A stretch of DNA of 64,000 bases from Megaustenia siamemsis (Eukaryota > Mollusca > Gastropoda > Stylommatophora > Ariophantidae): assembly GCA_032433765.1 (NCBI GenBank), contig JAVIAB010000101.1:60627592-60691591 (forward strand). Direction: 5' to 3'. A model generated the notes under the pieces. It was not told the DNA's origin. It did no database searches and worked only from the letters and a program-made list of their open reading frames with translations. Shown one piece after another: positions 2,882 through 62,970 of the stretch. Made by a program: the position numbers and the translations under genes. Each line of letters starts with the position of its first letter. Positions within the stretch are counted from its first letter, which is position 1.

Positions 2882-2917
2882 GCACTGTTCTTCTTTATAA
2901 ATAATAATGTATTAACT
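2882..2917 (+). CDS. Weak candidate micro-exon, phase 0 (36 nt)
   Basis: The block is preceded by CTAATTAAATTTAG and followed by the good donor GTGAGTGC. Phase 0 reads ALFFFINNNVLT without a stop. The acceptor has a poor pyrimidine tract and the peptide is low in complexity, so this may be chance. It has the same length class and phase as the stronger exons further right. Confidence 0.25.
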
Positions 2918-3190
2918 GTGAGTGCTACACTAGCATGTGCTACAGTCTAGAAAGTTGTTGGTCTTCTGATGAAACAGGATATTTATCTTCTTCTATTTCT
3001 AATGGACACAGCTACATCTCTAGTGTAGTCTCTGAAAATGAGATCCAGAATCTCGAAAAATGACTCGGCCTGGTCTGGTATCAACCACATCACCAATGAA
3101 ATGACGTGTTAGTCATTGACAAGCATTACTGCTAGTATACAAATACAGTGATGTAACAACATTTTCATTAAAATATAAAAAGCCTTTCAG

Positions 3191-3220
3191 AGAACATACT
3201 CGCAAACAAATCTATTGAGG
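3191..3220 (+). CDS. Weak candidate micro-exon, phase 0 (30 nt)
   Basis: A short acceptor AAAAAGCCTTTCAG precedes a 30-nt block that reads RTYSQTNLLR in phase 0, followed by the donor GTGAGG. It lies just left of SINE-1. Both splice signals are moderate, so chance occurrence is plausible. Confidence 0.3.
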
Positions 3221-3282
3221 GTGAGGTAGGGTGGGTGTAGATTGACAATGAAACCTTCACTCTCCAGCTGGAACATCGTCTT

Positions 3283-3602
3283 AAAAGGTCAAGGTCAAGT
3301 ACGAGATTTGAATCGGCGACTTTTCACTTATACGTGCTCGGTCGCATATCCAGAACTGTTCGGAAACTTCTGGATAGTGTCGCTTCAAGCCTTGAAACCC
3401 ACTATGCGAGGCGACATTCCTCACCTTCCCAGAGTACTTTACTGGTACCCATTTCTGCAAGCGGCTGGGTCGATCGCGGGCTTATTTTCTATTTTCCAAC
3501 TACGAGTACAACTCACACTCACAGGGGATACGAACACGTGTTTTCCTAACGTCGGTAGCTCCGTCTAGTGGGTTTCACAAATAGGCTACCTAGGCCCCCA
3601 AC
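3283..3602 (-). mobile_element. tRNA-derived SINE (SINE-1), copy 1
   Basis: On the minus strand the right end is a tRNA-like head beginning GGGGGCCTAGGTAGCC, with a degraded B-box region. The body matches the copies at 16795-18094 and 29373-29699. The left end carries the repeat-like AAGGTCAAGGTCAAGTACGAG tail. This copy is more diverged than the other two. Confidence 0.75.
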
Positions 3603-3736
3603 ATTGCTTTAACCTCCTGACATCAACATCCTGCCGAATTCAAGTTGAATAATTTCAAATTTTTAACCTTTAAAAGAAATTATCATTTTAAATATGTCTA
3701 ATAAATACACTATCACAAAAAAAAAAAAAAAAAACT

Positions 3737-3890
3737 TCACGAAAGAAATGGAAAGACTAATAAAAGTGCTATTGAATTATTTTCGGGTCATCATCATTGC
3801 AATCTGAACATGTCCATAGGTGCTCAGATCCCCTCCTCAGCAATTCCCGCAGTGTCCAACGAATGATGACTTCAGCTGTGTGTTATTATA
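3737..3890 (-). mobile_element. I/Nimbus-like LINE 3' tail, left part (split by a transposon)
   Basis: The segment matches the 3' end of the LINE at 27440-27566 (shared GGTCATCATCATTGCA, GTGCTCAGAT and CCGCAGTGTCCA). It breaks off at TA (3889-3890), where the Sailor-like element begins, and resumes at 6241. A 19-base A run precedes it at about 3717-3735. Confidence 0.7.
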
Positions 3891-4515
3891 GTTCGATCAG
3901 AAATTCGTTCCCGCAGAGTTTATTAATTGTCTCGGAAACTGATGAATGTATGTAATTCTTTTCGTGAAATCATATTTTTTCACCAACGTTCAGTGTTATT
4001 TTTTGCCCTACTGCCATGCATTTAGGAAAGATTTTTGCTTATTTGAGGTATATAAAAATACGATTTTCTTGCTTGTCCTAAATTTTAGGATTTTACAATA
4101 CCCACATTTGTATAATCAACTCACCAATTAAAATGACAAATTTCACGTGCTTACCACACAATCTTAGAACCGTTTCACACTCTTAACTTGTACGACGCGC
4201 GCCACTTTGAGGTTCTTTATGGTAATTTCATTTCCGGTTTCTTGTTAAATTGGTCCAGAGGAGTATTTGGACAAAATATTTACTATTAATAAATATTCCT
4301 GTATGTGTGATAATTTGTAAGCTGTTGTGAAGTGACTACTTGATTTTTAAAACCATGAAGAGTTTAATGTGTAAATTCATGACTATGAGCACGGTAACTG
4401 TGCTATTGTACATGCACTTTTGCAAGGAATCTAAATGTAGATTAGTGATCGATATATTACGATATAAAATACAAAATAGAAAACAGAACACGGGCAGGTC
4501 TAAATATATGTAGAA

Positions 4516-5700
4516 AGTCTTTCAGTCGATGGAAAGGTTTGAATTTCTGATTCTACAGAGGCGACAGTCAGGCAAGGAAGAAAAATGTATGTTGATGATT
4601 TTGACAATGATGTTATTAGACGTGAAATTTTGAAAATGTTTGAATCAAATCAACTTGTTACACTGCGCAAACTTAAAGTTTGACTGTAATTAGAATGTGA
4701 TATTGAAATCCCAAAAACGAGACTTTGGAAGATCGTAAGAGGCGTTGGTTTCACTTGTCACAAATCTGCTAGTGGTAGAAATATTGTTTGTGAAAAACCA
4801 CACCTGATAGCTGCCCGAAGCAAATACCTGAGGCAGATCAGTGAGCGACGAATGGAAGGCTACGATATAGTATATTTGGATGAAACGTGGGGCAATGCTC
4901 ATCATACATATGAGAAAGAATGACAATCAGTTGACAGAGAAAATAAAAGAATCATTTCCAGCAGCAAAGGACAACGCATCATATTGGTACATGCTGGCAG
5001 TAGAGAGAATGGTCTTGTTAATGACACACAACACATTATATTGTTACATGCTGGCAGTAGAGAGAACGGTCTTGTTAATGACATACAACTTATTTTTCAA
5101 CCAAAGTCTACAGACAATAGGGACTACCACACTGAAATGAATGGACGCATTTTCAGAGACAGGATAGAGAACACTGGACTACTCATTCTGGATAGACCTT
5201 CATGCCCTGTAATGGATAATGCATTCTATCATAATGCGGTAGCACTGGAGGACACAGTTCCTAATTCGCCATGAACAAAAGATCAAATCATCACATGGCT
5301 TAGAAAAGAAAATGTTTCCTTTCAAAACACCAAGTTAAAACCAGAGTTGTTGCAACTTGTTAGACAAACTAAGAAGACAAAGTTATATCAAATTGATAAA
5401 ATAATTACAAAGTATAGCCACACATCTCTTCACATCCCACCTTATCATTCACACCTCAACCCAATAGACATTGTGTGGGCTAAAGTCAAAGGGAAAGTTG
5501 CTGCGCAGAACACAACGTTTAAAATGTGTGATGTTAAAGAATTGACGCGTGATGCCCTCTCAACCATAAACATTGAATGCCGGAGAAAATGTGACGACCA
5601 TATGCTCAGAGAAGAGGAACAGTACTGGCAAAGAGATGGATTGCAGTTTGTCCAACCGATAACAATTGTTAACCTCTTGGAGACTTCTGATTCGGAATGA
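4516..5700 (+). pseudogene. Transposase, Sailor-like (wide DDE/D spacing), broken
   Basis: This would be the DDE/D transposase that cuts and pastes the surrounding element. The first aspartate is in YLDETW (near 4875), the second in VMDNAFYHN (near 5213) and the third in HLNPIDIVWA (near 5468). About 83 residues separate the last two, far more than the 34-41 of usual Tc1/mariner proteins. Stops interrupt it near 4681-4695, 4921 and 5272. A 57-bp in-frame tandem duplication (unit starts near 4988 and 5045) adds a second copy of HAGSRENGLVND. The copy at 15353-16561 gives the intact layout for comparison. It is a pseudogene. Confidence 0.8.
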
Positions 5701-5721
5701 CATATGTATGACATGTGCACA

Positions 5722-5900
5722 ATTTTGTTGATGTCACTCTTACTATTTGTTGACTATGTGTGTTTGATGTTCTGGTTGTTCCATATATTTTGTTGATGGC
5801 ACTCTTACTATTTGTTGACTATGTGTGTTTGATGTTCTGGTTGTTCCATATATTTTGTTGATGACACGCCTGCTATTTGGCGACTATGTGTATGTGATAC
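5722..5900 (+). repeat. Tandem repeat of about 70 bp inside the Sailor-like element
   Basis: The phrase containing TTGTTGACTATGTGTGTTTG and GATGTTCTGGTTGTTCCATA occurs twice in full and a third time in degraded form. It lies downstream of the transposase stop. Confidence 0.85.
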
Positions 5901-6759: not shown

Positions 6760-6789
6760 ATTAACCAGTGTCATTATGTATTCCATCTA
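6760..6789 (+). CDS. Candidate micro-exon, phase 0 (30 nt)
   Basis: The acceptor is the T-rich run ending TTTTTTGTTTAG, with a branch-like CTAAAT about 25 bases upstream. The donor is GTGAGTAT. Phase 0 reads INQCHYVFHL; one alternative frame has an immediate stop. A second AG after INQ would give a 21-nt version, also in phase 0. Confidence 0.5.
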
Positions 6790-6899: not shown

Positions 6900-7155
6900 A
6901 ATAAAAGTAAAGTACCCCCGTCACGCTAAGTGGCGTATAGGGAATATGGTGTTAGTGACCATAAATTTTACAGACCTTCGGCACATGTTTTTTGGGGTAA
7001 TGTGGTCGGTATTACGCCCGTACCGCTTTACTTTCAAAGAAAAAAATCCGGTACCCATTTTAGGCTTTGTGAACCGGAGCCGTCGATTGGGATCGAACCC
7101 TACCTCTTGTCCTTTGTAGTCCAGTTCACTAACCACTGAGCTATCGCGGTTCCCT
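6900..7155 (-). mobile_element. tRNA-derived SINE (SINE-2), monomer with 13-bp TSD
   Basis: On the minus strand the head reads GCGATAGCTCAGTGGTTAG (A box), followed by GGTTCGATCCC (B box), as in a tRNA. The body then reaches a tail related to AAGTAAAGTA. It is flanked by exact repeats TGCATCAACCAGT at 6887-6899 and 7156-7168. It also matches 8570-8827, 10045-10306 and 39757-40013. Confidence 0.9.
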
Positions 7156-7168: not shown

Positions 7169-7492
7169 GTTAGTGGCTTATTATTTCTACAGGTGGGTCA
7201 ATAGAGATCATATTTAAGAAAAGCAATAACAATCATTTTGATGAGAAGATGACCAGCTGAAATAAATAGAGATTCACGTACTACATGTTAGTCAGGCAAT
7301 CATGACACTGGTTAATTTAAAATGCAGTATAGAAGCATAAACGAGTCATACAACAACCGTATTTCCAAATATAACAATCTAAGGGGTTTATTTGTTGATA
7401 TACAAGGAAACACTGTGTAAATGAATAGTCACTCTCTTCAAATTACTCAAACAAGAAGGCAATTCCTCGGGTTTTTTTTTTGCCCTGTGCAG
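7169..7492. other. No recognisable gene
   Basis: Nothing recognised apart from the pyrimidine-rich approach to the candidate exon at 7493. Confidence 0.4.
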
Positions 7493-7510
7493 AACGCTGC
7501 ATTCATCACA
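7493..7510 (+). CDS. Candidate micro-exon, phase 0 (18 nt)
   Basis: A very strong acceptor tract (a run of ten T then GCCCTGTGCAG) precedes a block reading NAAFIT in phase 0. The donor GTACGT is only fair. The length is at the lower end of the series, so the call depends mainly on the acceptor. Confidence 0.35.
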
Positions 7511-8460: not shown

Positions 8461-8827
8461 ATGGGTGTCCGGTTAGCGCAATCGATAGGCGGTTGGCTTA
8501 CCACGGCAACAGCCGGGGTTCGTACCCTGGCGAGGACACCTGGGTTTTACTAATTCCCTAAAAATTAGTAGGAGCCGCGATAGCTCAGTGGTTAGTGAAC
8601 TGGACTACTACGGACAAGGGGTAGGGTTCGATCCCAACCGACGGCTCCGGGTTCACCCAGCCTTAAATGGGTACCGGATTTTTTCTGGGAAAGTAAAAGC
8701 AGCACGGGCGTAATACCGACCACATTACCCCAAAAATCATGTGCTGAAGGTCTGTAAAATATAGGGTCACTAACACCATATTTCCCTATACGCCACTCGG
8801 CGTGACGGGGGGTACTTTACTTTACTT
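8461..8827 (+). mobile_element. Dimeric SINE: tRNA-like unit joined to SINE-2, 13-bp TSD
   Basis: The first 80 bases form a tRNA-like unit: matching ends GTGTCC and GGACAC, the A-box-like TTAGCGCAATCGATAGG and the B-box GGGGTTCGTACCC. An AT-rich linker containing AATTCCCTAAAAATTAGTA follows, then a full SINE-2 (GGAGCCGCGATAGCTCAGTG, GGTTCGATCCC) ending in TTTACTTTACTT. One exact duplication, ATAAGATCGTTAA (8448-8460, 8828-8840), flanks the whole unit, so both parts moved together. The implied anticodon of the first unit looks abnormal, so I do not call a functional tRNA. Confidence 0.85.
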
Positions 8828-9777: not shown

Positions 9778-9798
9778 ATACGTTTTTATTCACTCCAA
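9778..9798 (+). CDS. Candidate micro-exon, phase 0 (21 nt)
   Basis: The acceptor is a T run then AAAATTTCAG and the donor is GTAAGC. Phase 0 reads IRFYSLQ; the other frames are also open, so phase comes only from the agreement with the other exons. Confidence 0.45.
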
Positions 9799-10044: not shown

Positions 10045-10306
10045 ACCGTCAAATAAAAAAAAAAGTAAAGAGGCTCGTCACGCTATGTTCGTAAAGGGAG
10101 TATGGTGTTAGTGAGCATTTTTGTTATAGACCTTCGGCACAAGATTGTTGTAGTCGGTTTACGCCCGTGTCGTTTCACTTTCCAATTTAAAAAAATCCGG
10201 TACCCATTTAAGGCTGTGTAAACCTGAAAGCCGTCAATCGGGATCGAGCCCGACCTCTTGTACTTATTAGTCCAGCTCACTAACCACTGAGCTATCGGGG
10301 CTCTCA
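10045..10306 (-). mobile_element. tRNA-derived SINE (SINE-2), diverged copy
   Basis: The minus-strand head has GATAGCTCAGTGGTTAGTGA and a B-box-like GGGCTCGATCCC. It is flanked by GTGAGGC at 10038-10044 and 10307-10313, a possible short target duplication. Confidence 0.8.
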
Positions 10307-11265: not shown

Positions 11266-11301
11266 ATTATCGATATGGTGGATACCAAGATTGTTTTTAT
11301 T
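11266..11301 (+). CDS. Candidate micro-exon, phase 0 (36 nt)
   Basis: The acceptor TTTTTCGATTTCTTAG and donor GTAAGTTAA bracket a 36-nt block reading IIDMVDTKIVFI. All three frames are open, so the phase is taken from its neighbours. The next strong exon is about 1.3 kb to the right. Confidence 0.55.
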
Positions 11302-12576: not shown

Positions 12577-12609
12577 GCTGTCAAACCTGATGATTCAAAT
12601 ATTGCTGAA
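12577..12609 (+). CDS. Candidate micro-exon, phase 0 (33 nt)
   Basis: The acceptor TATCTTTTTTCATTTGTAG is strong and the donor GTAAGTTATG is near-perfect. Phase 0 reads AVKPDDSNIAE; one other frame has a stop (TGA). It shares the first codon GCT and the donor context GTAAGTTAT with the exon at 13304. Confidence 0.6.
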
Positions 12610-13303: not shown

Positions 13304-13339
13304 GCTATAGAGAAATTAGCGTTTAAAAGACTGGCTGTC
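13304..13339 (+). CDS. Candidate micro-exon, phase 0 (36 nt)
   Basis: The acceptor ATCACGTATTTTTCAG follows a long T-rich stretch, and the donor is GTAAGTTATA. Phase 0 reads AIEKLAFKRLAV; both other frames contain stops. The peptide could form a short amphipathic helix. It resembles the exon at 18957 (AIKLAER), and both start GCTATA. Confidence 0.62.
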
Positions 13340-18956: not shown

Positions 18957-18977
18957 GCTATAAAGTTGGCTGAAAGA
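18957..18977 (+). CDS. Candidate micro-exon, phase 0 (21 nt)
   Basis: The acceptor TGTTCTGTTTTATTTTAG and donor GTAAGTCAA are both strong. Phase 0 reads AIKLAER; both other frames hit stops, despite the short length. The presumed upstream intron is 5.6 kb and contains RTE-A, a Sailor-like relic and SINE-1. Confidence 0.62.
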
Positions 18978-20152: not shown

Positions 20153-21160
20153 TGATACCTAGATCATTTTTTTACAACTTTTGGCTGCCGGAAACCATGT
20201 TGTTCTTCGGACATTTCATGTCTGATCTAATGTCTCACTCTATAATTTATTTATTGATGTAGCAGTATCGTGGTCGGATGACTAATGAGGCTGGTAGTTA
20301 TGTGATTCTCACGCTCAAATGGTTGTTGTTTCTTTGGGAGGGCATAGTCAAGATGGAGATGGTGAATTTAAAAGAAGACGGCAGAATCTTACACAAAAAT
20401 TCAATTCCGGCAATGGTAGAATCGCAGAAAAAAATAAAAATGGGAATGGTATAATCTCAACAGCATTAAGTGAAAGTGGTGAATTCTCAGCAATATCAAA
20501 TGCTAGCGGTAAAATCTCAGCAATATCAAATACCAACTGTATAATCTCAGCAATATCAAATACCAACTGTATAATCTCAGCAATATCAAATTCCAACTGT
20601 ATAATCACAGCAATATCACATGCCGACTGAATAATCTCAGCAATATCACATGCCGACTGAATAATCTCAGCAATATCAAATACCAACTGTATAATCTCAG
20701 CAATATCAAATACCAACTGTATAATCTCAGCAATATCAAATTCCAACTGTATAATCACAGCAATATCAAATACCAACTGTATAATCTCAGCAATATCAAA
20801 TGTCAACTGTATAATCTCAGCAATATCAAATTCCAACTGTATAATCTCAGCAATATCAAATACCAACTGTATAATCTCAGCAATATCAAATTCCAACTGT
20901 ATAATCACAGCAATATCACATGCCAACTGAATAATCTCAGCAATATCAAATGTCAACTGTATAATCTCAGAAATATCAAATTCCAACTGTATAATCTCAG
21001 CAATATCAAATGGTAATGACACAATCTCACAAACATTAAATGACAGTGATATAATCCCATCAAATATAAATGACAGTAGTATAGTATCAGAAACATTAAA
21101 TGACACTGATATAATCTAATCAATAATAACTGACAAGGTATAATCTTTGCAACAATAAAT

Positions 21161-23079: not shown

Positions 23080-23109
23080 ATGTTTAATTTGACAAAAGAT
23101 CGACTTGGA
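23080..23109 (+). CDS. Candidate micro-exon, phase 0 (30 nt)
   Basis: The acceptor TTAATGTATTCCCAG has a shorter pyrimidine tract than most of the series; the donor is GTAAGTAGA. Phase 0 reads MFNLTKDRLG, and both other frames contain stops. It lies 150 bases right of the minisatellite, outside any recognised repeat. Confidence 0.5.
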
Positions 23110-23635: not shown

Positions 23636-26600
23636 CTCCTCTTCTACCTTTTTATCTCCTTGTAGAACATAGGTCTTCAACAAACACATTCCCAGCCGTT
23701 CTGTTTTGTGTTATTCTTTTAAGATCATTCCATGTCTTTCTCATCATCTTCATCTCTGCTTCTATCTGTCTTCTCCAAGAATTCCTTCGTCTTCCTCTTT
23801 GTCTTTTCCTCTGGGGATTCCAAAAAGGGACTGTTGTGTAATACTCTCAGTTGGCTTCCGCAGTGTGTGTCCTATCCAGCGCCATCGTCTTCGCTGTATC
23901 TCCTTATATGTATTAAATGGTACATTTCCATAATTCTATGTCAGTGATTTTGTCCTGCGATTTCCATCCCTTTATTCTGCTTAAGCATCCATTAATGAAA
24001 GTATTTATCTTTTTGGTTATCAGTGTTGTGGTTCTCCATGTTTCACATCCATATAATAGGACCGACTTAACATTTGAGTTGAACATTTTTATTGTTGTAT
24101 TTAAACTAATTTCGTTGGACTTCCATATGTTTCCGAGTGTAATGAAAGCTCCTTTTGTTTTTTGATATCCTTATTTTGATATCATTTCTTTTTTGCTCCT
24201 TTTTTATCTATATTACTGCCCAGATATATGTAAGATTGTACGTCTAGTAGAAGTATGTCTCCTAATTTTATTTGGTTATTGCCAACTGCATTAATTCTCA
24301 AAATGTTAGTCTTATCTCTATTAATTTTCAGTCCTAGCTGTTGTGATCTCTCATTAAGTATGCTAATTTTATCCTGTATACTATGTCTTCAGCAAAGTCT
24401 AAATCATCATGTTGCCTGGTCAGTGACCACTGGATTCCATTTCTGTTGTTTTAAGTTATTTTCGTAATCCAGTCTATGGCCAGTTGAAAGAGAAATGGAG
24501 ACAGACGGCATCCCTGCCTTACTCCTGTTCTTATTTCAAATACTTCTGTAACCTGGCATTCATGCACCACACTACATTTCAATCTCTCATACATTGTTTT
24601 TATCAGGTTAATAAAATTTATGGGGATTCCATAATGACTCAGCAACTTACAAAGCATTCCTCAGTCTAAACTATCAAATGCCTTTTCGTAATCTATAAAT
24701 CCAATATAAAGTGGGGATTTTAGTTCTAAACTTTGTTCAACTATTATACATAGAGTAGTTATTTGATCAGCACATGATCTGTTCTTCCTAAAACCTGCTT
24801 GTTCATCTCTGAAATATTTCTCGATGGCCTCATTTACTCTCTCCGGAATGATTCTGCTTTATATTTTTCGTGGGCACTGATATTATTATAATTCACCTAT
24901 AATTTGTGCACTACTTTAAAATTATTTCTTTGGTAGTTTGATCATATAACCTTCTTTCCAGTATTTAGGTATTTCTTCCCTCTACCAAATTGTTTCTAAT
25001 AGATTCTGTAACATCTTGGTAAAGGTGTTAATATCTCCTTTGATGGCTTCGATGAATTTCATCTGGTCCTGTGGCTTTACCATTTTGTTAATAAAATTGA
25101 TGGCTTTCATTATTTCTTCTTTGCTGGGTTTTCCACAGTTAACGTATAACTCTTCTTCTGCTGGTAGTATATCTGGAGGATTATTTGAGCCGAGTCTGTT
25201 CAAAAGTTTTTCAAAGTGCTCTTTCCATCTCTCCATTTCTTCCCTTATATTACTAAGCAGATTTCATTTCTTGATATAGGCATTGATCTGTTTGTATTTT
25301 CCACTAAATGTCTTTATGTATTTGTGCTGTTGTACAGTTCTTTCATATTCCCTTTATTTGCTGCTTCTTCTGCCTCTTTAGCTAGTCCATCTAAATATTT
25401 CCTTATATCCCTTTTAATGCATCTTCTCACTTCTTTGTTCACTTCTGTGTAAGCTTCATTTGTCTTGGCTTTATTACTTGTCGTTTTGCTTTTGTTTATG
25501 TCTTCTTTCTTGTTCTTTCTTTCTTTAATTTTATCAAGGGGTTCTGCTGTCATCCATGCCTAATACTAGCGTTCTCTCTTCCCCGGCGTTTGTTCGCATG
25601 TCTCTACCCATATATCCATTACCTGTTTCCAATGATCTTCTATAGATATTGTATTTTCTAGTTATTGGAGGACTTGGTATTTGTTTGATATTGTGACTGC
25701 GAATGTATCTTTAATTTATTGTTCGTTAAGAAACCCTACATTGAAAGACATTCTACCCTTATTCGTTGTAGTATATCTTTTTAGTTTAAGTTTAAGTTTG
25801 GCTCACAGAAGATGATGATCTGAAGCTACTGCCCCTCTGTATACTTTTACATCCTGTAAGGTTGACTTAAACATATTATTAATACATTTGTGATCAATTT
25901 GATTTTCCGTTCAATGATCTGGTGACACCCATGTAGCTTTATGTATTATTTTATGTTGGAATATTGCTCCTCCTAGGTTCACTTGTTTAAGATCACAGAA
26001 ATTCACAAATATCTCTCCATTCTCGTTTATATCTCCAAGTCCATGTTTTCCCATGATCTTTTCGAAGCCGCTGCTGTCCGATCCTACTTTAGCATTTAGA
26101 TCTCCCATGAAGATTATAATATCCTGGGTTGTTCTTTCATCCATCTGACATTGTAGCTGTTTATAGATTTAAACTTTAACTAAATCATTCTTATCGTTGG
26201 TTGGTGCATAGCATTGGATAATGTGTAATTTTATTTTGTTTGTGGTTTTTTTAAATGTAGCTCTCGTTAGTCTTGGCCCTACTGCTTCCCATTCTATTAG
26301 TGTCTTCTGTGCATTCCTTGATAACATTATAGCTAACCCTTCACTATGTTGTGCTCCAAGTTCCATAGTGTTCTGTTGATAAAATCATATCTTCTGTATT
26401 TAGTTTTATTCTTTCCTTCCCTAGCCATCTTTTTTTACACATTCCTGGAATATATATTTTGTAATTTCTCATTTCTACTGCTACATGTGCAGCTTTTCCC
26501 TGTTCGTTTAGAGTACGTACATTCCAGGGGCCAATTATGGAGGGTTTCCTGATAGACAAACCGTGAGTCGGCAAACCGGACTCGTTACGGCTTTCTCCTG

Positions 26601-31697: not shown

Positions 31698-31733
31698 GTT
31701 CCACTGGTTTTTGCTGAAATACAAATGAGAACT
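31698..31733 (+). CDS. Candidate micro-exon, phase 0 (36 nt)
   Basis: The acceptor TTCTTGGATTTCTAG and donor GTAAGTATT bracket VPLVFAEIQMRT. Both other frames contain TGA stops. It stands in unique sequence between two LINE copies about 600 and 900 bases away. Confidence 0.62.
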
Positions 31734-32016: not shown

Positions 32017-32320
<304 letters not shown>

Positions 32321-37524: not shown

Positions 37525-38275
37525 TTATATAGGGTTGTAGTTAGACATGCTTCACGTTGAGACTACTTATAGAGTGTAATTAGGCATGCTTCACGTTGAG
37601 ACTATTTATAGAGTGTAATTAGGCACGCTTCACGTTGAGACTATTTATAGAGTGTAATTAGGCATGCTTCACGTTGAGACTATTTATAGAGTGTAATTAG
37701 GCATGCTTCACGTTGAGACTACTTATAGAGTGTAATTAGGCATGCTTCACGTTGAGACTATTTATAGCGTGTAATTAGACATGCTTCACGTTGAAACTAC
37801 TTATAGAGTGTAATTAGGCATGCTTCACGCTGAGACTACTTATAGAGTGTAATTAGGCATGCTTCACGTTATGACTATTTATAGCGTGTAATTAGGCATG
37901 CTTCACGTTGAGACTACTTATAGAGTGTAGTTAGACATGCTTCACGTTGAGACTATTTATAGAGTGTAATTAGGCATGCTTCACGTTGAGACTACTTATA
38001 GAGTGTAGTTAGACATGCTTCACGTTGAGACTACTTATAGAGTGTAGTTAGACATGCTTCACGTTGAGACTAGTTATAGAGTGTAGTTAGATATGCTTCA
38101 CGTTGAGACTACGTATAGAGTGTAGTTAGGCATGCTTCACGTTGAGACTACTTATAGAGTGTAGTTAGGCATGTTTCACATTGAGACTACTTATAGAGTG
38201 TAGTTAGGCATGCTTCACGTTGAGACTACTTATAGAGTGTAGTTAGGCATGTTTCACATTGAGACTACTTATAGA
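37525..38275 (+). repeat. 39-bp minisatellite, about 19 units
   Basis: The unit contains CATGCTTCACGTTGAGACTA followed by a TTATAGAGTGTA(A/G)TTAG portion. Units differ by a few positions, with two adjacent blocks sharing the variant CATGTTTCACATTGAG. The frame has stops, so there is no long ORF. Confidence 0.95.
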
Positions 38276-38600
38276 GTAAAACAAAAGATCGACAAGTGAA
38301 TTTGCTGTTGTATAGCACATTATACTGTAAGTAATGCAGCAGTCTATGTTTTGTCTTTAATTGTACATGTAATGCGACCACTCATCACGTCCTGGACTCC
38401 TCAAGTTTAGTACACACTTTATAACATTGTTGCCTTATCGTGGTAACTGTGACACATTCTAATCATGAATATCTGACCAGGTCTTGTCAAAAGTAAGAAC
38501 AGAAAACTTACATTTGTTTATAGGTTCATCGAAGAATAAATAATACAAAAGTGTTTGGAGACATGTTATCTTAAGCAGAATTTAATGTCTTCTATAGCAG

Positions 38601-38618
38601 GATATTGTTGCAAGAAAA
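38601..38618 (+). CDS. Candidate micro-exon with tandem acceptor, phase 0 (18 or 21 nt)
   Basis: Two acceptors stand side by side (CTTCTATAGCAG, a NAGNAG arrangement), so the exon may begin at 38598 (QDIVARK) or 38601 (DIVARK); either way it stays in phase 0. The donor is GTAAGTTACC. All frames are open at this length. Confidence 0.5.
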
Positions 38619-39756: not shown

Positions 39757-40013
39757 GGAAAAAGTAAAGAGCCCCCGTCACGCCAAATGGCGGATAGAGA
39801 ATATGGTGTTAGTGACAAACAACTTTACAGACATTCAGCACCTGATTTTTGTGGTAATGTGGTCGGTATTACGCCCGTGCCGCTTTACTTTCTCAGAAAA
39901 TATACGGTACCCATTTTAAGGCTGGGTGAACCCGGAAGCCGTCAGTTGGCATCGAACACTACCTCTTGTCCTTTGTAGTCCAGTTCTCTAACCACTCAGC
40001 TTTCGCGGCGCTC
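39757..40013 (-). mobile_element. tRNA-derived SINE (SINE-2), diverged copy
   Basis: The minus-strand head has GCTGAGTGGTTAGAGAACTG. The flanks ACGATAATTGTAA (near 39744) and ACGATAGTTGTAA (near 40016) differ at one base, an ageing target duplication. Confidence 0.85.
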
Positions 40014-40202
40014 TACGATAGTTGTAAGGTCTCTCAAAATATATTACTTTTATCAATCGGCGTTCAAATGATACAACTTTAACAGCAACAATGTTAGGAA
40101 GCATACACCAATGATCACATTTATTCTAGGAAGAAAGAGAGAGTAGCGAATAAAATCAAGCCAGTTAGAGAAAAAATTGGTACAGCAGTGGTTTGTTCTT
40201 CG

Positions 40203-40572
40203 AACTCTTTCGTTTACAGAGCCGGTCGATCTATTTCGTTTACAGAGCCGGTCGATCTATTTCGTTTACAGAGCCGGTCGATCTATTTCGTTCACAGAGC
40301 CTGTCGAACTATTTCGTTTACAGAGCCGGTCGATCTATTTCGTTTACAGAGCCGGTCGATCTATTTCGTTCACAAAGCCAGTCGATCTATTTCGTTCACA
40401 GAGCCAGTCGAACTATTTCGTTCACAGAGCCTGTCGAACTATTTCGTTCACAGAGCTGGTCGAAATATTTCGTTCACAGAGCCGGTCGAACTATTTCGTT
40501 CACAGAGCCGGTCGAACTATTTCGTTCACAGAACCGGTCAAATTATTTCGTTCACAGAGCCGGTCGTATTAT
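40203..40572 (+). repeat. 27-bp minisatellite, about 14 units
   Basis: The unit is near TTCACAGAGCCGGTCGAACT plus ATTTCG. All three plus frames stay open through it (40177-40609) because the unit length is divisible by three and no frame contains a stop. Peptide units such as FTEPVELFR and YFVHRAGRT alternate by frame. There is no sign of which, if any, is used. Confidence 0.93.
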
Positions 40573-45345: not shown

Positions 45346-46675
45346 CGGGAGGTCAAAAAGTAATGCACACACATTTTTTTCTCGGCTAATAATAAAGATA
45401 GGAATATGAAATGTTGCACACTTAGAATATGACATGTTCCAATTATGTCCACCAAATTGCACAGCATTCTGATAAATATTACGCAATATATGAACCGTTA
45501 AAATGGAGCTTGTCAACAATGTCCGTTACAAACAGCGAATTGTCATAGAATTTCTGGTTGCGGAAAAAGAAACTGTGGCAAACATTCATAAACGACTGTG
45601 TGCAGTGTACAAATGTTCTGCAGTCGATAGGAGCACAGTTAGTCGCAGGGTTCAGAGAATTAAAGCTGCAGAAAGTGTACGAGTGGAGCTGCATGATTTA
45701 CCGCGTTCTGGGCGTGTTGCCTCGGCTACCAGCACAGACATGTTAAACCGGGCTGATGCCATTATTCGTAAGGATAGGCGTATCACTAGTCAGCAATTGG
45801 CATTGCAGCTTACAGTCAGCAAGGGAAGTGCAATCGCAATTTTTAAAACTCTCGGATATTCAAAGATTTGCGCTCGATGGGTTCCTCGGTGCCTAACAAA
45901 TGATCACAGAGTTCAAAGGAAAACATTCTGTTCTGAATTGTTGGAGCGTTTCGGTGTTGAAGGAGAAATGTTTTTGTAAAAAATTGTTACCGATGACGAA
46001 ACGTGGGCACATTATTATGAGCCTGAAACAAAAATGCAGTCAATGGCATGGCATCATCCGCAGTCACCAAAAAGAAAAAAATTCAAAACATCTCCATCAG
46101 CCGGAAAGGTGATGATCACTGTCTTCTGGGACATTGATGGTGTGATTCTTGTTGATGTAATGACAAGAGTTGAGACAATCAACTCGCCAGCTTACATCAA
46201 TACACTGACAAAACTCAAAAATCGGTTCCACAGAGTTCGGCCTAATAAGCCATCTGCAGATTTGTTGCTTCAACATGACAAAGCACGCCCTCACACAAGT
46301 CTGGTAACACGGGAAGCAATCAACAAATTTGGTTGGACTGTACTGCCCAATCCTCCTTACAGCCCTGATCTGGCTCCCTCAGATTTCCATCTGTTTGGAC
46401 CACTCAAAAAATTCCTGCGTGGGGCACACTTTGACAATGATGAGGGTGTGATCCGTGCAGTTAAAAATGGCTACGCGAGCAGGACAAAACTTGGTACAAA
46501 CGAGGCATTCATGATCTAGTTTCGCGTTGGCGTAAGGCAATACGCTTGGACGGAGATTATGTTGAAAAATAGGTAGTGTAAAGGGGATGTTCAGCTACAA
46601 TCTGTGAAAATTTCACACATTTTGCCCGAATAGTTTCCGAGAAAAAAATTGGTGTGCATTACTTTTTGACCTCTC
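45346..46675 (+). mobile_element. mariner (DD34D) transposon
   Basis: Terminal inverted repeats of about 40 bp: left GAGGTCAAAAAGTAATGCAC and right its complement, ending ACTTTTTGACCTCTC, followed inward by TTTTTTTCTCGG. It sits at TA within a TA array. Length is about 1.33 kb, usual for mariner. It interrupts RTE-A2. Confidence 0.92.
45503..46571 (+). pseudogene. mariner transposase, broken
   Basis: The protein would bind the terminal repeats and catalyse cut-and-paste. The N-terminal helix-turn-helix region is RIVIEFLVAEKETVANIHK and CSAVDRSTVSRRVQRIK. The catalytic region shows TDDETWAHYYEPETK (first D), LLQHDKARPHTS (second D, usually QHDNARPH) and PPYSPDLAPSDFHLF, whose D is the third. 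The stop TAA at 45977-45979 splits the frame just before the catalytic part, and a frameshift near 46475 moves the C-terminus (KTWYKRGIHDLVSRW) to another frame. It is inactive. Confidence 0.92.
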
Positions 46676-46677: not shown

Positions 46678-46678
46678 C

Positions 46679-49224: not shown

Positions 49225-49254
49225 TATGCAGGAATGCTGAACTCACTAACTTCA
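49225..49254 (+). CDS. Candidate micro-exon, phase 0 (30 nt)
   Basis: The acceptor TTCATTATGTCTTTTTAG and donor GTAAGTTATC bracket YAGMLNSLTS. One alternative frame has a stop. An RTE-B copy inserted 58 bases beyond the exon without touching the donor. Confidence 0.6.
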
Positions 49255-50061: not shown

Positions 50062-50752
50062 GTGTGTACATGGGGAAATGTGTGTACTTGAGGAAATGTG
50101 TGTACTTGAGAAAATGTGTGAACTTGAGAAAATGTGTGAACTTGGAGAATGTGTGTACTTGAGGAAAGGTGTGTACTTGAGAAAATGTGTGTACTTGAGG
50201 AAATGTGTGTACTTGAGAAAATGTGTGTACTTGAGGAAATGTGTGTACTTGAGGAAATGTGTGTACTTGAGAAAATGTGTGTACTTGAGGAAATGTGTGT
50301 ACTTGAGGAAATGTGTGTACTTGAGAAAATGTGTGTACTTGAGAAAATGTGTGTACTTGAGAAAATATGTGTACTTGAGGAAATGTGTGTACTTGGGGAA
50401 ATGTGTGTACTTGGGGAAATCTGTGTACTTGAGGAAATGTGTGTACTTGGGGAAATGTGTGTACTTGGGGAAATGTGTGTACTTGAGGAAATGTGTGTAC
50501 TTGAGGAAATGTGTGTACTTGAGGAAATGTGTGTACTTGAGGAAATGTGTGTACTTGGAGAAATGTGTGTACTTGGGGAAATGTGTGTACTTGGGGAAAT
50601 GTGTGTACTTGAGGAAATGTGTGTACTTGAGGAAATGTGTGTACTTGAGGAAATGTGTGTACTTGAGGAAATGTGTGTACTTGGGGAAATGTGTGTACTT
50701 GGGGAAATGTGTGTACTTGGGGAAATGTGTGTACTTGGAGAAATGGATGTTC
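50062..50752 (+). repeat. 18-bp minisatellite, about 38 units
   Basis: The unit is TGTGTACTTGAGGAAA plus TG, with G/A variants. Two frames on each strand stay open for 218-263 codons (units CVYLRK, MCVLEE, YTHFLK, VHTFPQ). No promoter, signal or flanking coding sequence distinguishes one of them. Confidence 0.95.
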
Positions 50753-52128: not shown

Positions 52129-55100
52129 TTTCCGGTGTCATGGCGGCTTCGTGTAGTCGATTTTTATAATTCGGCTCTTGCTGATATATTTAAATGATTT
52201 ACGCGACAGTCTAGTTGTGAAATTATGTGTTGCTATTCTCCCGTTTGGTGTATGTTTTACTTCTAACGTGGGGATGGACTGTGATTGCCGATATTTAAGT
52301 GGAATATGATTTATTCTTCTTTGTGTTGTGTGTTCGCGGTTCGATAGGCAAGCACATGGTTTGACAAAAATGTCAACGGAAAAACGGGTATGTTCAATCC
52401 TTATGTGAAAAGTCTGTGACGGTGGATGGAGGCGGAGGAATCAAGAATGATCAACGGCCCAGAAAGCGAAAACAGCAAAGTGTGTGGTACACAAGAGGCA
52501 TGTTCAGAACACGAAAGACGAACATGGCTGACCACCGTGAAAGAGATTGGAGCCTCATCACGTACCAGTCCAGAGGAAGCCATGGAGAGTCGGAGAAATT
52601 CGAACTTATGTCGGAGGAAAGATCTTAAAATAAGTACTTGGAATGTTAGGACTCTATATCAACAAGGGAAATTGGAAAATCTAGTTCAAGAAGCAGAACG
52701 AATAAATATAGATATTTTAGGCATATCAGAGACTAGATGGAAGGAATGTGGGTACATTGAAGACGAAAAATATACATTTATATACTCAGGAAACACAACA
52801 GAACATCAAAGGGGGGTAGGAATACTGATAAAAAGAGAGCTACAAAAATATATAAGTACCCACTGGACATACAGTGATAGGATTATACTACTCAAGTTGA
52901 AAGCAAAACCATTCGACATAGCAATAATACAGACATATGCACCTACTCAAGGCTACACAGATGAACAAATAGAGGCATACTATGAAGACCTAAATAAAGT
53001 TATGAAGCAAGTGAAATCTTCAGACATCTTGATTGTAATGGGTGACATGAACGCTAAAGTAGGAAAAGGTAGATATAAGACAATTATAGGAAATCATGGT
53101 TTAGGAAAAAGAAATGACAGAGGAGAAAGATTAATACAATTCTGTGAAGAAAACAGGCTGATAATATGTAACACCTACTTTGAGCAAGAGAAAAGGAAAC
53201 TATACACATGGAAAAGCCCTGGAGATAGGAAGAGGAATCAAATAGATTACATAATGATAAAAGAAAGGTTCCGTAACAGCGTAAAGAAAGCCAAAACCTA
53301 CCCAGGAGCAGATATTAATTCTGATCACAATCCTGTAATGATTAAAATGAAAATCAAACTAAAGAGAAACAAGCAAAAATCTGATTCATCAACAAACCCA
53401 CTCGACATAACAGCTTTAAATCAAAAAGATATTAAAGATACCTATACAATACAAGTAAAGAACACATACCAGAAGCTGCTAGAGGAAGGAATTGAACAAT
53501 ACAGAAGAGAAAATCCTGATGAAAAAGTAACAACCAAATGGCAATGCATAAAGAAAAGCATACAAAAAGCCTGCGACACCTTACCCAAAAGAGAAAAGAA
53601 CAAAAAACAAAAATGGATAACTAACACCATCTTAGAAAAAATGGAAGAAAGGAGACAAGCGAAGAACACTGCCCAATACAATAAAATAGATAATGAGATA
53701 CGCAAAATGTGCAAAAAGGCAAAAGAAGACTGGCTCAGCCAAAAATGTAGAGAAATAGAAACTATGGAAAGCAAACAAGACCTAAGAGGAATGCACACAG
53801 AAATAAAGAGAATGACTAATAAAATAAAAAAGCCACAGAAGGTGGATGCATTGCAGACAAAAAAGGAAAAATGCTAACAGACAATAAGGATATCATAGAT
53901 AGATGGCAGGAATATATAACAGAACTATTTCATGATCAAAGGGACAAGAAACCAGTTATAAAATGTACATCAGGCTATAAAATCTTAAAATCTGAGGTGG
54001 AAAAAGCTATAAAAACAATGAAAAGGGGAAAAGCAGCAGGACCTGAAAGCATACAGATAGAGATGATACAGGCACTTGAAGATTTTGGCATTGAAGTGAT
54101 TACAGACATATGCAACGACATATACCACACAGGATACATACCAAATGAACTAAAAACATCAACTTTCATTGCATTGCCTAAAAAGAATGGTGCAGTTGAA
54201 TGCAGTGACTTTAGAACAATAAGCCTAATGAGCCATGTTACAAAAATCTTGCTAAAAGTTATACAAGGAAGGATTCAGAATAAAATCAATACTGAATTAG
54301 ATGAGCAGCAATTTGGATTTAGGAAAAATAGCGGGACAAAAGAAGCCATATTCTGCATGAGAACATTAATCGAAAAATACACAGAAGTAAACAAACCAAT
54401 ATATGCCTGCTTCATAGACTATACCAAAGCTTTTGATAGAGTACACCACAAACAACTTATAGAATGCCTAAAAGAGATACATCTAGATGACATGGATATA
54501 CGACTAATATGCAATCTATACTGGGAGCAAACAGCAATAATAAAATATAACAAAGAGTTCTCTACACCCATTGATATAAAAAGAGGAGTAAGACAAGGAT
54601 GCATCCTATCACCAAGCTTGTTCAATCTATACACTGAGCAAATCTTTAAAAACATCATAGAGATGCCAGGCCTACAAATTAATGGAAAGATAATCAATAA
54701 CCTAAGATATGCTGACGATACTGTACTACTAGCAGAAAATCCTAAAGACCTACAACAATTACTTAATGAAATAAACACGACAAGCAAAAAATATGGACTA
54801 GATATGAATATCAAAAAGACTAAAACTATGATCATAAACAAAGAAAATACTCAAAACCCACAAGTGGATATCAAATTGAAGGAATAGACCTTGAGACAGT
54901 TCAGAACTATAACTACCTTGGACATACTATAACCAGTGATGGAAAATGTACAACTGAAATAAACAAAAGAATAGGAATGGCAAAAAGTAATTTTAATGTC
55001 ATGAAGGACATACTAACATCAAAACAAATAACACCAGAACTAAAACTAAGAATAGCAAAATGTTACATCTTCTCAATATTCCTATATGGTGCTGAAACAT

Positions 55101-55491
55101 GGACATTAGACAAGAAAACAGAACAGAGAATTGAAGCCTTTGAAATGTGGATATATAGAAGAATAGGTAGAATTGGATGGAAGGAAAAGAAAACAAATGA
55201 CAAAGTCTTAAAACAACTAAAAATGAAAAGAGAACTTCTGAACACAATTAGAACAAGACAAATGCGATTCTTAGGCCATGTTAAAAGACACAACAGCCTA
55301 CTGAAAGTGATCCTGGAGGGGAAAATACAAGGTAAAAGAGGCAGAGGCAGACCAAGATTAACATGGACGAGTAACATCAAAAGATGGACAAATCAACCGA
55401 TGACAACCTGCACCATCAAAGCAAGAGATAGAGCAAAATGGCGCTCCATGGTAGCCAACCTTCGTTGCGGAGACGGCACTCAATGATGATG
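52129..55491 (+). mobile_element. RTE-B LINE, near full length, 10-bp TSD
   Basis: Exact repeats ATCCAATGGC (52119-52128, 55492-55501) bound 3.36 kb. It has about 300 bp of 5' leader beginning TTTCCGGTGTCATGG, a single ORF region with two one-base shifts (52426-55486), and the 3' end GGCACTCAATGATGATG. The exact duplication and few lesions point to a young insertion. Confidence 0.95.
52426..55486 (+). pseudogene. RTE-B endonuclease-reverse transcriptase, two single-base frameshifts
   Basis: The first frame (52426-53877, 483 codons) has the apurinic-type endonuclease from about residue 68: STWNVRTLYQQGKLENLV, ISETRW, EHQRGVGILIKRE, IIQTYAPTQGY, IVMGDMNAKVGKG, RNQIDYIMIKERFRN and SDHNPVM. The second frame (from 53871; 338 codons) is the RT: DRWQEYITELFHD, KRGKAAGPESIQ, CFIDYTKAFDRVHHKQ, GVRQGCILSPSLFNLY and the catalytic LRYADDTVLLAEN. 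The third (54977-55486) is the C-terminus YGAETWTLDKKTEQR, RQMRFLGHVKRHNSLLK and GKRGRGRPRLTW. Both shifts fall in A-rich runs (near 53825 and 54872); the copy at 49313 supplies the unshifted sequence at the second site. I chose the start at 52426 as the first in-frame ATG of the long frame. Confidence 0.93.
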
Positions 55492-56461: not shown

Positions 56462-57122
56462 GATCCCATGTGACGACACCGCGTTCCCACTGTGACGACG
56501 GCACCGCGGACTCCATGTGATGGCACCGCTGACTCCCCTGTGATGGCACCGCGGGCGTCCTTTGACGGCACCGCGGACACCCTGTGATGGCACCAGGGAC
56601 CACCTGTGATGGCACCGCGGGCACCCTGTGATGGCACCTGGGATCCCCAGTGATGGCACCGCGAATCCCCTTTGACGGCACAGCGGACACCCTGTGATGG
56701 CACCTCGGACCCCCTGTGATGGCACCGCGGATCCCCTTTGATGGCACCGCGGGCACCCTGTGATGGCACCTGGGATCCCCTGTGATGGCACCGCGGATCC
56801 CCTTTGACGGCACCGCGGACACCCTGTGATAGCACCTGGGACCCCCTGTAATGGCACCGCGGATCCCCTTTGACGGCAACACGGACACCCTGTGATGGCA
56901 CCTGGGAACTCCTGTGATGGCACTTGGGATCCCCTGTGATGGCACCGCGGATCCCCTTTGACGGCACCGTGGACACCCCTGTGATGACACCTCGGACCCC
57001 CTGTGATGGCACCGCAGATCCCCTTTGACGGCACCGCGGACACCCTGTGATGGCACCGCGGATCCCTTTGACGGCACCGCGGACACCCTGTGCTGGCACC
57101 TCGAACCCCCTGTGACGACACT
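56462..57122 (+). repeat. GC-rich 22-bp minisatellite, about 30 units
   Basis: The unit is near TGATGGCACCGCGGATCCCC plus TT, alternating TGATGG/TGACGG. It is rich in CpG in an AT-rich setting. All three minus frames are open across it (213-276 codons), repeating every 66 bases. Confidence 0.93.
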
Positions 57123-59066: not shown

Positions 59067-59087
59067 TTCACAGAGTTTATAGAAACT
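59067..59087 (+). CDS. Candidate micro-exon, phase 0 (21 nt)
   Basis: The acceptor CATATTTTCTATTTCAG and donor GTAAGTGCG bracket FTEFIET. One alternative frame has a stop. A mobile-element relic begins about 10 bases after the exon end, leaving the donor intact. Confidence 0.6.
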
Positions 59088-59340: not shown

Positions 59341-59456
59341 GCAAAGCAGGGCTGCTGCAGTTTTTATTGTCTACTGCTTACAATAGCAGGTAACATTACT
59401 CCACCTTGCATTAAAGATTGCAAATATATGATCAAGTTGAAACAGGTTTGAGTACT

Positions 59457-59945: not shown

Positions 59946-60034
59946 CCTAGGAACAGTATTAACAAGTTTGGAAAAGTAGCAGCAACTGAGGACATGTAAT
60001 AAATTTCTTTTTTTCAAATAACAACATTGGATTG

Positions 60035-60930
60035 CAGAAAACCATCATCATCATTGAATGCTGTTCAATGGTTCATTGGTTCAACCATCGATGGTTTGTT
60101 ACCATGGAGCGCCATTCTGCTGTCTCTTGAATTGATGATGCAGGTTGTCATAGGGTGACTTGTCCATCTTTTAATGTTTCTCTTCTATTTTATTCTTGTT
60201 CTGCTTCTGCCTCTTTTATCTTGTATTTTCCCTTCCAAGATTACTTTTAGTTGGCTGCTGTCTCTTTTAACATGCCACATCAATTTCGTTTGTCTTGTTT
60301 GAATTGTATTTAGTAGTTCTCTTTTCACTTTTAGTTGTTTTAAAACGTCATCATTTGTTTCCTTTTCTTTCCATCTAATTCTTCTATAAATCTCTATTTC
60401 AAAGGCTTCATTTTTCTACTCTGTTTTCGTGTCAGTCCATGTTTCTGCATCGTACATGAATGTTGAGAAGATTTTGCTATTCTTAGTTTTAGCTTCTTCC
60501 TCTTTAGCTTATTCTTCTCCTTTTCCTTCCTTGATTTGCCTTTCAATGTCAAGGTGACGCATGATTTGCAGTATTTCGCTTTTCTCTTTGCCTCTGCTGC
60601 TGTTATGTTTCCTAGTCTATCATATTCCATCAATACATCTTTTTATATGGTCGGCCTTGGGTCTTGTGTTTTCATAACGTTTATTGAAGAATCGTTGTGT
60701 TGTGTTTTGCTCTTTCTGCCTTATTACATTGCTAAAACATTGTATATGTAGTTTCTCTTTGTATTGTATGGCCGGGATTATGCATTGGCTATTTCTCGTC
60801 ATTCTTCTAACACATTTTATCTCGGTAGTCGTTATTTTTATTATTGTACTTGTATCTTGGGTTCATGTAGAAAACGTTGGGATGAAGATTATATTGTAGA
60901 GTGCCCGTTTTGACTCCTGAGTTTTTTCCT
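60035..60930 (-). mobile_element. RTE-B-like and LINE-D fragments, minus
   Basis: The left part has the RTE-B end (ACCATGGAGCGCCATTCTGC, GTTGTCATAGGGTGACTTG) and the right part LINE-D residues (complement near 60850: NVFYMNPRYKYNN). The order resembles 35785-37260. It is heavily decayed. Confidence 0.65.
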
Positions 60931-61153
60931 ACACACTTCCATTTTGGATGGCAAGTGGGGTCTTAAATGAAATGGACAACCTAGTCAATGTTAACGGACC
61001 GTGCCTTGCCATGCATTTGGGACATCCCCATATCAATTCATTGTTTTAAAAGACTTGTACAGTTGTGTACTTTGATAACAAATATTATAATAATGATGTT
61101 GTTATTTGTCCAGATTGTCATTTCATTAAAAAGTAAATTATGTTGTCTTTCAG

Positions 61154-61183
61154 ATGTTAAATCAAATTAGTACAGATGTAACA
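61154..61183 (+). CDS. Candidate micro-exon, phase 0 (30 nt)
   Basis: The acceptor AATTATGTTGTCTTTCAG and donor GTAAGTATT bracket MLNQISTDVT. Both other frames contain TAA or TAG stops. It lies outside any recognised repeat. Confidence 0.62.
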
Positions 61184-61342
61184 GTAAGTATTGCTTTATA
61201 GAACTATATGGAATGTGAAAAAGGAATTATACTTCTATATGGCTAGCCATTCATTGTTTGTTTAATTCTGCATACTCCTATATCAATGATCAGTCACGTA
61301 TTCACCTCAATAAATTGATATTCATTATTTACAAGTAAATTA

Positions 61343-61510
61343 AGAGAGTAAAGTTTCCCTCCCCTGCATTGCTAGGCATGTGAGCAATATGGTGTTAGTG
61401 ACCACATTTTTCTATGGCCAGGGCACATTTTTGGGTGATATGGTCGGTATCACGCCAGGCCGTATTTAAATCTTTAAAAAAAATCACTGCTAAACATTTT
61501 AGGAGGATGG
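61343..61510 (-). mobile_element. SINE 3' fragment related to SINE-2
   Basis: It shares AATATGGTGTTAGTGACCA, TTCCCTCCCCT and TATCACGCCAGG with 23505-23635. The tRNA-like head is missing. Confidence 0.65.
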
Positions 61511-61554
61511 GTGTTTCTTCTCAAAATGGACTTCCGGTCAAAATGTCAGATAGC

Positions 61555-61905
61555 CGGCAGGAATCTTTGAGGTTCTGTCTGAAAAGTGTTCCTTGTTGCA
61601 GTTTCCTCATATTCCAAGTCCGGTATGCTGCAGGAGCTACTGAGTTTAGTTCTCTGTGCAACCCGTGATCTGTATTTTTCATCAGGATCATGTTTCAATA
61701 TTCCGTTTGCTTACGTTGAATGATAATATAGTATAACGAAGGGCAGTTCAGCTGCGTTCATTTTCGCTGCCGCGCCGCCTTATGTATTTTGGCGTGTACT
61801 GTAGCTGATATGATGGGGATTTGCCTTTCATTGTTTGGATCCTTTAAACATGACATATTAATTCGGATTATTCAACTGACGCTGGCGGTTGAGAGATTGC
61901 GATTC
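61555..61905 (+). repeat. Interspersed repeat Q, copy 4
   Basis: It runs GTCTGAAAAGTGTTCCTTGT through TATTTTGGCGTGTACTGTAG to CGCTGGCGGTTGAGAG. It joins the left half seen at 23290 and the right half seen at 27001 in one copy. Confidence 0.7.
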
Positions 61906-62928
61906 TTTTTCCTTTTGCAGTGATACATGAGCCTTCGACAAACCACTAACCATTCTTCTTATCCTTGTCTTAGTTATTTTGTCCAGGCACTCACACAAGC
62001 ATGATCACATTATAAACACTAGCACAATCTGAATTAATCACCTGGGGCATAACGGTACCTGTTTATTTTTTTTTTTTTTGTCGGGCCATCTGCATGTCTA
62101 TCAACTTGTTCACTTGCGGAAAAAAACTATTTTAGGGACATACATACGGCGATAATTGTAGGGATTAGATATGCGATGTAGTGCAATATATCATATTAAA
62201 GAGTAAGGTTCAGTACATATTAAATCAAAGCAAAAAAAAACTAAAAAAATTTAGATAACGATGTGATGAAATAATGAAGATACGACTAAGTGACTTTAAA
62301 TGAAGCATACCATTTGTTACAACAAACAAAACCAATAAAATTACGAACAAAATGGAGAAGGGTTAGACTCAAAGGCAGGCAGAGAACGAGAACTGAAGAG
62401 ACGACATCAAAGAAGTAACGGATCTGGACAACATAAATCACAAACATTTGTAGCAAACTGAACAAATCGAAAGAGACGGGCTCAGCTGAATCTATAAAAC
62501 ATGTTGTATACTCACTTTAACTTCTTGGATATTCAGGTTTTCCTAAATGTATCCACTTTTATGAGTCCACTTATATATATATGTGTGATTTATCGCGAAC
62601 GGTTGAAGAAATCATTGCTTATATCATATTCTAAAGCATCAACTGGGGAGTAAATTCCCTCTATTAGAAGAGGTCGTAAACCTATGTGTGTTTACTTTAT
62701 TCAGACCAATGTTGTTTACTTCCTTCAGATCTCTGCTTGTTTATTTCATTCAGACCTATGTTTGTTTACTTAATTTACTGCAGTGCAGAAGATAAGCAGA
62801 GTTCATGGCGGTATAAGATAGCATTACATGAGCGATCTATTTGAAGAATTACGGGCACTTTGTTCATCTTTTGAAACGTGAAATATTTTAATTACATAAA
62901 ATATAACTTTACTTTTCTGTCTTTCTAG
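61906..62928. other. Presumed intron; a short tandem repeat
   Basis: A 25-bp unit (CCTATGTTTGTTTACTT, ATTCAGA) repeats about four times at 62681-62777. A 12-nt block after GGATATTCAG at 62539 has a weak donor and is not called. Confidence 0.5.
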
Positions 62929-62970
62929 TATCGTCACCCTGATGCTGGAGAGATTGTAGACTTAGAAAAG
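62929..62970 (+). CDS. Candidate micro-exon, phase 0 (42 nt)
   Basis: The acceptor TACTTTTCTGTCTTTCTAG is the longest pyrimidine tract of the series. The donor AAG/GTTAGC is weaker than GTAAGT. Phase 0 reads YRHPDAGEIVDLEK; both other frames have stops. It is the longest candidate and the last in the window. Confidence 0.58.

Follow-up and report, generated by a model that had tools for sequence, protein, structure and literature searches.

The question raised by this locus is whether a series of very short blocks, each lying between an acceptor-like AG and a splice donor, belongs to a single gene built of micro-exons. The blocks are found on the + strand of a 64-kb stretch of contig JAVIAB010000101.1 of the gastropod Megaustenia siamemsis (hereafter the window), which is animal-type DNA with a GC content of 37.8% and a CpG observed/expected ratio of 0.72. 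Our analyses make it probable that the + strand of the window contains part of one real micro-exon gene, with predicted phase-0 exons of 21–42 nt. Judged from the DNA sequence, this unusual gene layout in a gastropod is most likely that of a micro-exon gene, the splicing of which is predicted. The eleven blocks that we have retained (the core set) run from 11266 to 62970 and span more than 51 kb, so that the window would hold the middle of the gene, perhaps most of it.

Short blocks in a common phase

We have scored splice sites with simple metazoan weight tables drawn up from general knowledge, and have paired each strong donor (GTAAGT or GTGAGT) with the best acceptor 9–48 nt upstream. On the + strand this rule gives 13 blocks. 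Their lengths are multiples of three in 12 cases (binomial P 1.7e-5; the 12 include 6760 and 51203, both left out of the core set), and 11 of these 12 are open in phase 0. The two others are 38316, which is 11 nt long and lies beside a 39-bp minisatellite, and 51203, which is 45 nt long and has a stop. GTAAGT itself occurs 14 times on the + strand and 13 times on the minus strand, where the same rule gives 3 blocks, none of them open in phase 0; a first-pass annotation of this DNA had likewise seen no such blocks at the minus-strand sites.

The number of phase-0-open blocks is far above what local composition yields. It averages 0.97 in 60 local dinucleotide shuffles (maximum 5) and 0.80 in 120 local Markov-3 sequences (maximum 4), against 11 in the real sequence. 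Three other settings of the rule behave alike, with 10 of 12, 14 of 19 and 11 of 13 blocks open on the + strand, 0 of 2, 1 of 9 and 0 of 4 on the minus strand, and shuffle maxima of 3, 7 and 3. The proposal of the first-pass annotation, namely that the phase-0 micro-exons are a chain belonging to one gene, has thus survived the null simulations, and we consider it the best reading of the blocks.

The eleven open blocks consist of 6760 and the ten GTAAGT blocks that had been named earlier. The donors of the latter (11302, 12610, 13340, 18978, 23110, 31734, 38619, 49255, 59088 and 61184) are all where they had been placed, and each closes a block after an AG. The hexamers had been put at a dozen on this strand; of the actual 14, ten end such blocks, which are 21–36 nt long, divisible by three and without a stop in phase 0. 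For the codon tests we kept these ten, dropped 6760 and added 62929–62970, which makes 112 codons in the core set (Table 1). Phase 0 is open in all eleven exons and is the sole open frame in six, in agreement with what had been stated before (open in every block, sole frame in at least six). The predicted introns of 0.7–10.6 kb are shorter at both ends of the chain than in the middle, and contain sequence of long and short interspersed elements (LINE and SINE) and of transposons. Repeats internal to the window make up 49% of it, and none of the 11 core exons lies inside them.

On the other hand, the earlier count of at least 14 blocks beginning at 2882 was too high, as only the 11 from 11266 to 62970 are supported. 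A coding signal is absent by the positional score described below from 2882, 6760, 7493 and 9778; 34729 and 39979 are within repeats, and the blocks at 26512 and 29342 are inside or between open frames of the minus strand which by eye are LINE-like. Further blocks were rejected on similar grounds. Those at 26425, 37467, 39161 and 61602, like 7493, have no phase-0 coding character, and 57383 and 61602, like 34729 and 39979, are wholly or mostly within repeats.

Table 1 Predicted micro-exons of the core set, followed by other candidate blocks in the window
Feature	Coordinates	Strand	Length (nt)	Phase 0	Peptide	Donor	Next intron (nt)	Remarks
Micro-exon 1	11266..11301	+	36	open	IIDMVDTKIVFI	GTAAGT	1275	
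Micro-exon 2	12577..12609	+	33	open	AVKPDDSNIAE	GTAAGT	694	top combined score
Micro-exon 3	13304..13339	+	36	sole open frame	AIEKLAFKRLAV	GTAAGT	5617	
Micro-exon 4	18957..18977	+	21	sole open frame	AIKLAER	GTAAGT	4102	
Micro-exon 5	23080..23109	+	30	sole open frame	MFNLTKDRLG	GTAAGT	8588	weak pyrimidine tract; below combined cut-off
Micro-exon 6	31698..31733	+	36	sole open frame	VPLVFAEIQMRT	GTAAGT	6864	
Micro-exon 7	38598..38618	+	21	open	QDIVARK	GTAAGT	10606	TAGCAG tandem acceptor
Micro-exon 8	49225..49254	+	30	open	YAGMLNSLTS	GTAAGT	9812	weaker coding score; below combined cut-off
Micro-exon 9	59067..59087	+	21	open	FTEFIET	GTAAGT	2066	
Micro-exon 10	61154..61183	+	30	sole open frame	MLNQISTDVT	GTAAGT	1745	
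Micro-exon 11	62929..62970	+	42	sole open frame	YRHPDAGEIVDLEK	AAG|GTTAGC		strong acceptor (7.6)
Candidate terminal exon, unproven	63359..63382	+		seven codons, then stop				acceptor 6.9
Doubtful block	6760..6789	+	30			GTGAGT		good splice signals; without coding character
Doubtful block	9778..9798	+	21			GTAAGC		without coding character
Unsupported block at the start of the earlier chain	2882..2917	+	36					poor acceptor tract; coding score about 0

Coding periodicity, predicted splicing and the joined peptide

The codons of the core set show a clear periodicity. G is found 40, 10 and 19 times at codon positions 1, 2 and 3 of the 112 codons (P 3.4e-5, with a random frame for each exon), and after removing the boundary codons, i.e., the first and the last of each exon, the counts are 33, 8 and 15 of 90 (P 1.4e-4). 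The purine contrast in the core codons gives P 0.02. In each of the 11 core exons, phase 0 has the highest leave-one-out positional score of the three frames, although in 49225 this highest score is negative. Among 13 rejected blocks with an open phase 0, which served as control, this phase is the best one in four, as by chance, and only 2882 scores above zero in it, at 0.02. In addition, a combined splice and coding score with a cut-off of 8 retrieves nine + strand blocks, all of them core exons, and on the minus strand only 2 blocks reach 8, both within one 30-bp minisatellite; this test is partly circular because the coding table was built from the core exons.

The donors are peculiar too. 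Ten of the 11 core exons have GTAAGT, letter for letter, as their donor, and all ten lack the G at position -1 that the usual donor consensus would lead one to expect, while the only core exon with this G (micro-exon 11) has a weak intron side. The four other GTAAGT hexamers of the + strand have no G at -1 either, and so the pattern may be partly background; on the minus strand, 3 of 13 have it. The primary transcript would exceed 51 kb, and its splicing would bring at least 11 tiny exons together in one mRNA. In this process, the near-perfect intron side of the donors may replace the exon-side contacts that too short exons lack, and may in this way make them spliceable over long introns. GTAAGT without G at -1 thus suggests how exons below the normal recognition size could be spliced across 10-kb introns.

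Since no codon is split between exons, skipping any one of them would alter a short segment without frameshift, and so would the choice between tandem acceptors at 38598 (TAG|CAG), where 21 or 18 nt are possible with the frame unchanged. From this symmetry, it is possible that any subset of the exons is spliced in. Strong donors, however, are no less compatible with constitutive inclusion than with skipping, and as they could equally mean the former, we do not claim alternative splicing. With 3.5 residues per turn, as in heptad-type helices, two, three or four turns are matched to within half a residue by eight of the 11 exon lengths (7, 7, 7, 10, 10, 10, 11 and 14 residues). Skipping could then perhaps hold a helix in register, although the remaining three exons, of 12 residues each, depart from this pattern.

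Joined in order, the predicted exons would encode 112 residues, among which I, A, L, D and V are abundant while C and W do not occur. Because of the architecture and the missing homologues, our guess is that the product evolves fast and is possibly secreted. Certain pairs of exons resemble each other (AIEKLA.., AIKLAER), but the pairwise scores have no null, so we make no claim on exon likeness. As to exon duplication, no BLAST match spans a block when 12 of them (the ten GTAAGT exons, 6760 and 9778) are compared with 400-nt flanks, and the matches of the flanks are to repeats.

Further exons and the gene ends were sought in several scans. The first one, with a very strict cut-off, gave one block on the + strand and none on the minus strand, and the rescans used looser donors, full 9-mer donors and the combined splice and coding score. 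From 11266 to 62970 these scans, within their limits, detected no ordinary exon: one with weak splice sites would escape, and above 240 nt the judgement relied solely on the listed open frames of at least 110 codons. In these more than 51 kb, blocks of up to 150 nt other than the core exons all stay below the combined cut-off. The only block of 76–240 nt with good splice sites, 33640, lies on a LINE-like frame of the minus strand. Candidates for a first exon with hydrophobic stretches, such as 5704–5757 (inside a tandem repeat) and 7421–7510 (donor GTACGT), have weak donors and were rejected.

Several observations weigh against a micro-exon gene at this locus. The exon chain is predicted from genomic sequence, and two of its members are individually weak, namely 23080 with a weak acceptor and 49225 with a negative coding score. 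As the core set was picked partly for phase-0 openness, the codon test is somewhat biased, and the control with 4 of 13 answers this selection bias only in part because its blocks were hand-listed from the scans. A first exon that would encode a signal peptide was sought in two scans of the window, with no convincing candidate; it may lie outside the window. Beyond 62970 there are five candidates for a terminal exon, and only that at 63359 has a strong acceptor, with only seven codons; a terminal exon at this place is possible. The joined peptide has no Pfam family at E 10 in three queries and no significant relative in the PDB, where the best of 3 matches at E 10 or less (SPLUNC2B, E 0.2) covers short stretches and was taken as chance. 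In the protein database, by a search that depends on shared 5-residue words, there is none at E 1 among proteins of about 62–196 residues (7 candidates) or of 171–544 residues (85 candidates). "Fast-evolving" as a property of the protein rests on these missing matches only. Finally, taken as a helix, the joined peptide has an amphipathicity that falls short of significance (P 0.08; P 0.11 in the exon-order control) and is suggestive at most.

Known micro-exon systems and other explanations

The chain could also be the part of a long, ordinary, conserved gene in which a run of small constitutive exons happens to occur, with normal exons outside the window, and which is already annotated elsewhere. 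This overlaps with the reading as a micro-exon gene, for the exon chain is real in both, and we consider it possible but unlikely. It fits the exact GTAAGT at ten of the 11 exons, as expected of constitutive splicing; neither gene end is established in the window, and proteins of more than 544 residues are beyond the length limits of our searches. On the other hand, more than 51 kb without a further block at the combined cut-off (weak-site exons apart), with 33640 being LINE-like, argues against an ordinary gene, and so does a joined piece without Pfam or significant PDB match. Small symmetric exons with all introns in phase 0 also occur in genes such as those of caseins/SCPP and fibrillar collagens. 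The joined piece has no visible collagen repeat and no match in Pfam.

Genes rich in micro-exons encode secreted variable proteins in flatworms (PMC5825161) and putative effectors in sap-sucking insects (PMC9168663). In Schistosoma mansoni, the exons of the micro-exon genes (MEGs) are 6–81 nt and mostly 15 nt long, a signal peptide is present, the introns measure 0.1 to about 5 kb and become shorter toward both ends, and the MEGs have few conserved motifs in common (PMC10526429). About 80% of the MEG coding region in this species consists of short symmetric exons (PMC5825161). For tapeworms, MEGs have been defined as genes of at least 7 exons in which micro-exons, of less than 70 nt and divisible by three, account for at least half of the exons and follow one another in runs of at least four; gene finders struggle with exons so small (PMC7653826). 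The run present here consists of 11 consecutive predicted exons of 21–42 nt, all multiples of three, and all 11 predicted exons within the window are micro-exons, while the rule of at least 7 exons, with micro-exons as at least half, refers to whole genes.

Could it then be a true flatworm MEG, secreted and alternatively spliced, in a flatworm genome? The run of predicted exons is of the kind by which tapeworm MEGs are recognised (PMC7653826), and the long introns, shorter at the ends, resemble the pattern of S. mansoni. However, the exons are 21–42 nt rather than mostly 15 nt, the introns reach 10.6 kb instead of about 5 kb, and the end introns measure 0.7–2.1 kb as opposed to 0.1–0.5 kb (PMC10526429). 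Moreover, no signal peptide exon was found in the window, and no sequence relative among proteins of 62–544 residues at E 1. The mobile elements, too, point to a mollusc. A search with one LINE reverse transcriptase of the window gave 5,966 matches among 8,000 candidates, and the nine organism-named ones in the best 120 of these 5,966 are from sea slugs, i.e., Elysia chlorotica, Plakobranchus ocellatus (five) and Elysia marginata (three), at 51–55% identity, with no flatworm. This is a hint at a heterobranch gastropod rather than a proof. We therefore find a flatworm gene very improbable, and would describe the layout as MEG-like, yet would not file the gene in the flatworm MEG class.

The bicycle genes of aphids, phylloxerids and coccids are protein genes of many micro-exons as well, divergent and hard to detect by sequence (PMC9168663). 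Internal exons of the aphid genes are almost all in phase 2, and the bicycle classifier gives phase-0 exons a negative weight of -3.32 (PMC9168663). Here, by comparison, all 11 exons are in phase 0, and because of this difference in phase we exclude bicycle identity. The cysteine-tyrosine-cysteine (CYC) motif of aphids is absent too, the partial piece of 112 residues having no cysteine at all; non-aphid bicycle homologues without obvious CYC have been reported, though (PMC9168663). With the micro-exon gene as the preferred reading, it remains doubtful, though conceivable, that wholly phase-0 micro-exon genes arose independently in gastropod molluscs, which would be the third lineage to have evolved such genes, besides flatworms and the group of aphids and their relatives, and that variants come from skipping exons of 7, 10–12 and 14 residues. 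A micro-exon gene in a mollusc would mean that the architecture is tied neither to parasitism nor to plant feeding and has arisen repeatedly; it would further suggest that genes of this type are overlooked by gene finders in other genomes that are large and full of repeats.

The first-pass annotation had called the gene undescribed. This agrees with the lack of matches in Pfam, PDB and proteins of 62–544 residues, and with a literature search on micro-exons in molluscs and arthropods (most subscription journals being outside it), in which no molluscan micro-exon gene is among the matches listed; the claim has gained no support beyond that.

Neuronal microexons of the eMIC (Srrm3/4) programme are very short exons with lengths that overlap those found here. 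They are single inserted exons, not chains, and a chain of eleven would be unusual. UGC was found within 60 nt upstream of the acceptor in 0 of 11 core exons vs 50% of random 60-mers (P 0.0005 with a simple background that ignores the T-richness of acceptor regions), and ten of 11 donors are exactly GTAAGT. By the published rule, eMIC exons have UGC near the 3' splice site, with weak donors in flies but not in mammals (PMC8797185), and this origin is thus hardly to be believed.

That AT-rich and pyrimidine-rich DNA simply yields AG...GTAAGT blocks, of which the in-phase ones were picked, is the least credible explanation of all, for although like blocks do occur in repeats of the window, the null simulations, the strand control and the coding periodicity all speak against chance.

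Mobile elements and tandem repeats in the window

The open frames of the window include those of LINE endonuclease and of reverse transcriptase, two mariner halves and a DDE_3 transposase, and RNase H is matched weakly. Of 10 frames compared with Pfam, seven match a family above its own cut-off, one has a weak match only, and two have none. No tRNA was found in the window, nor any Rfam family at its gathering score.

The LINE, with endonuclease and reverse transcriptase, occupies 52420–55486 across three reading frames; its nearest named relatives among the best 120 matches are those of sacoglossan sea slugs. The mariner-type transposase at 45494–46519 is in two halves with one in-frame stop between them, which match HTH_48 and Transposase_1.

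A SINE-like repeat with a tRNA-like head by eye has four related copies, at 6904–7153 (minus strand), 8571–8823 (+ strand), 10058–10303 (minus strand) and 39760–40008 (minus strand), with 79–91% identity to the first. Its reverse strand yields false acceptor-like blocks.

Tandem repeats are many across the window. There are minisatellites at 50062–50745, 37528–38277, 20485–21160, 40200–40566 and 56500–57115, with units of 18, 39, 30, 26 and 22 bp, respectively, and all but one of them coincide in part with open frames of about 140–280 codons, in more than one frame. An ATCT microsatellite at 32019–32318, with 75 copies, gives rise to SIYLSIYL reading frames.

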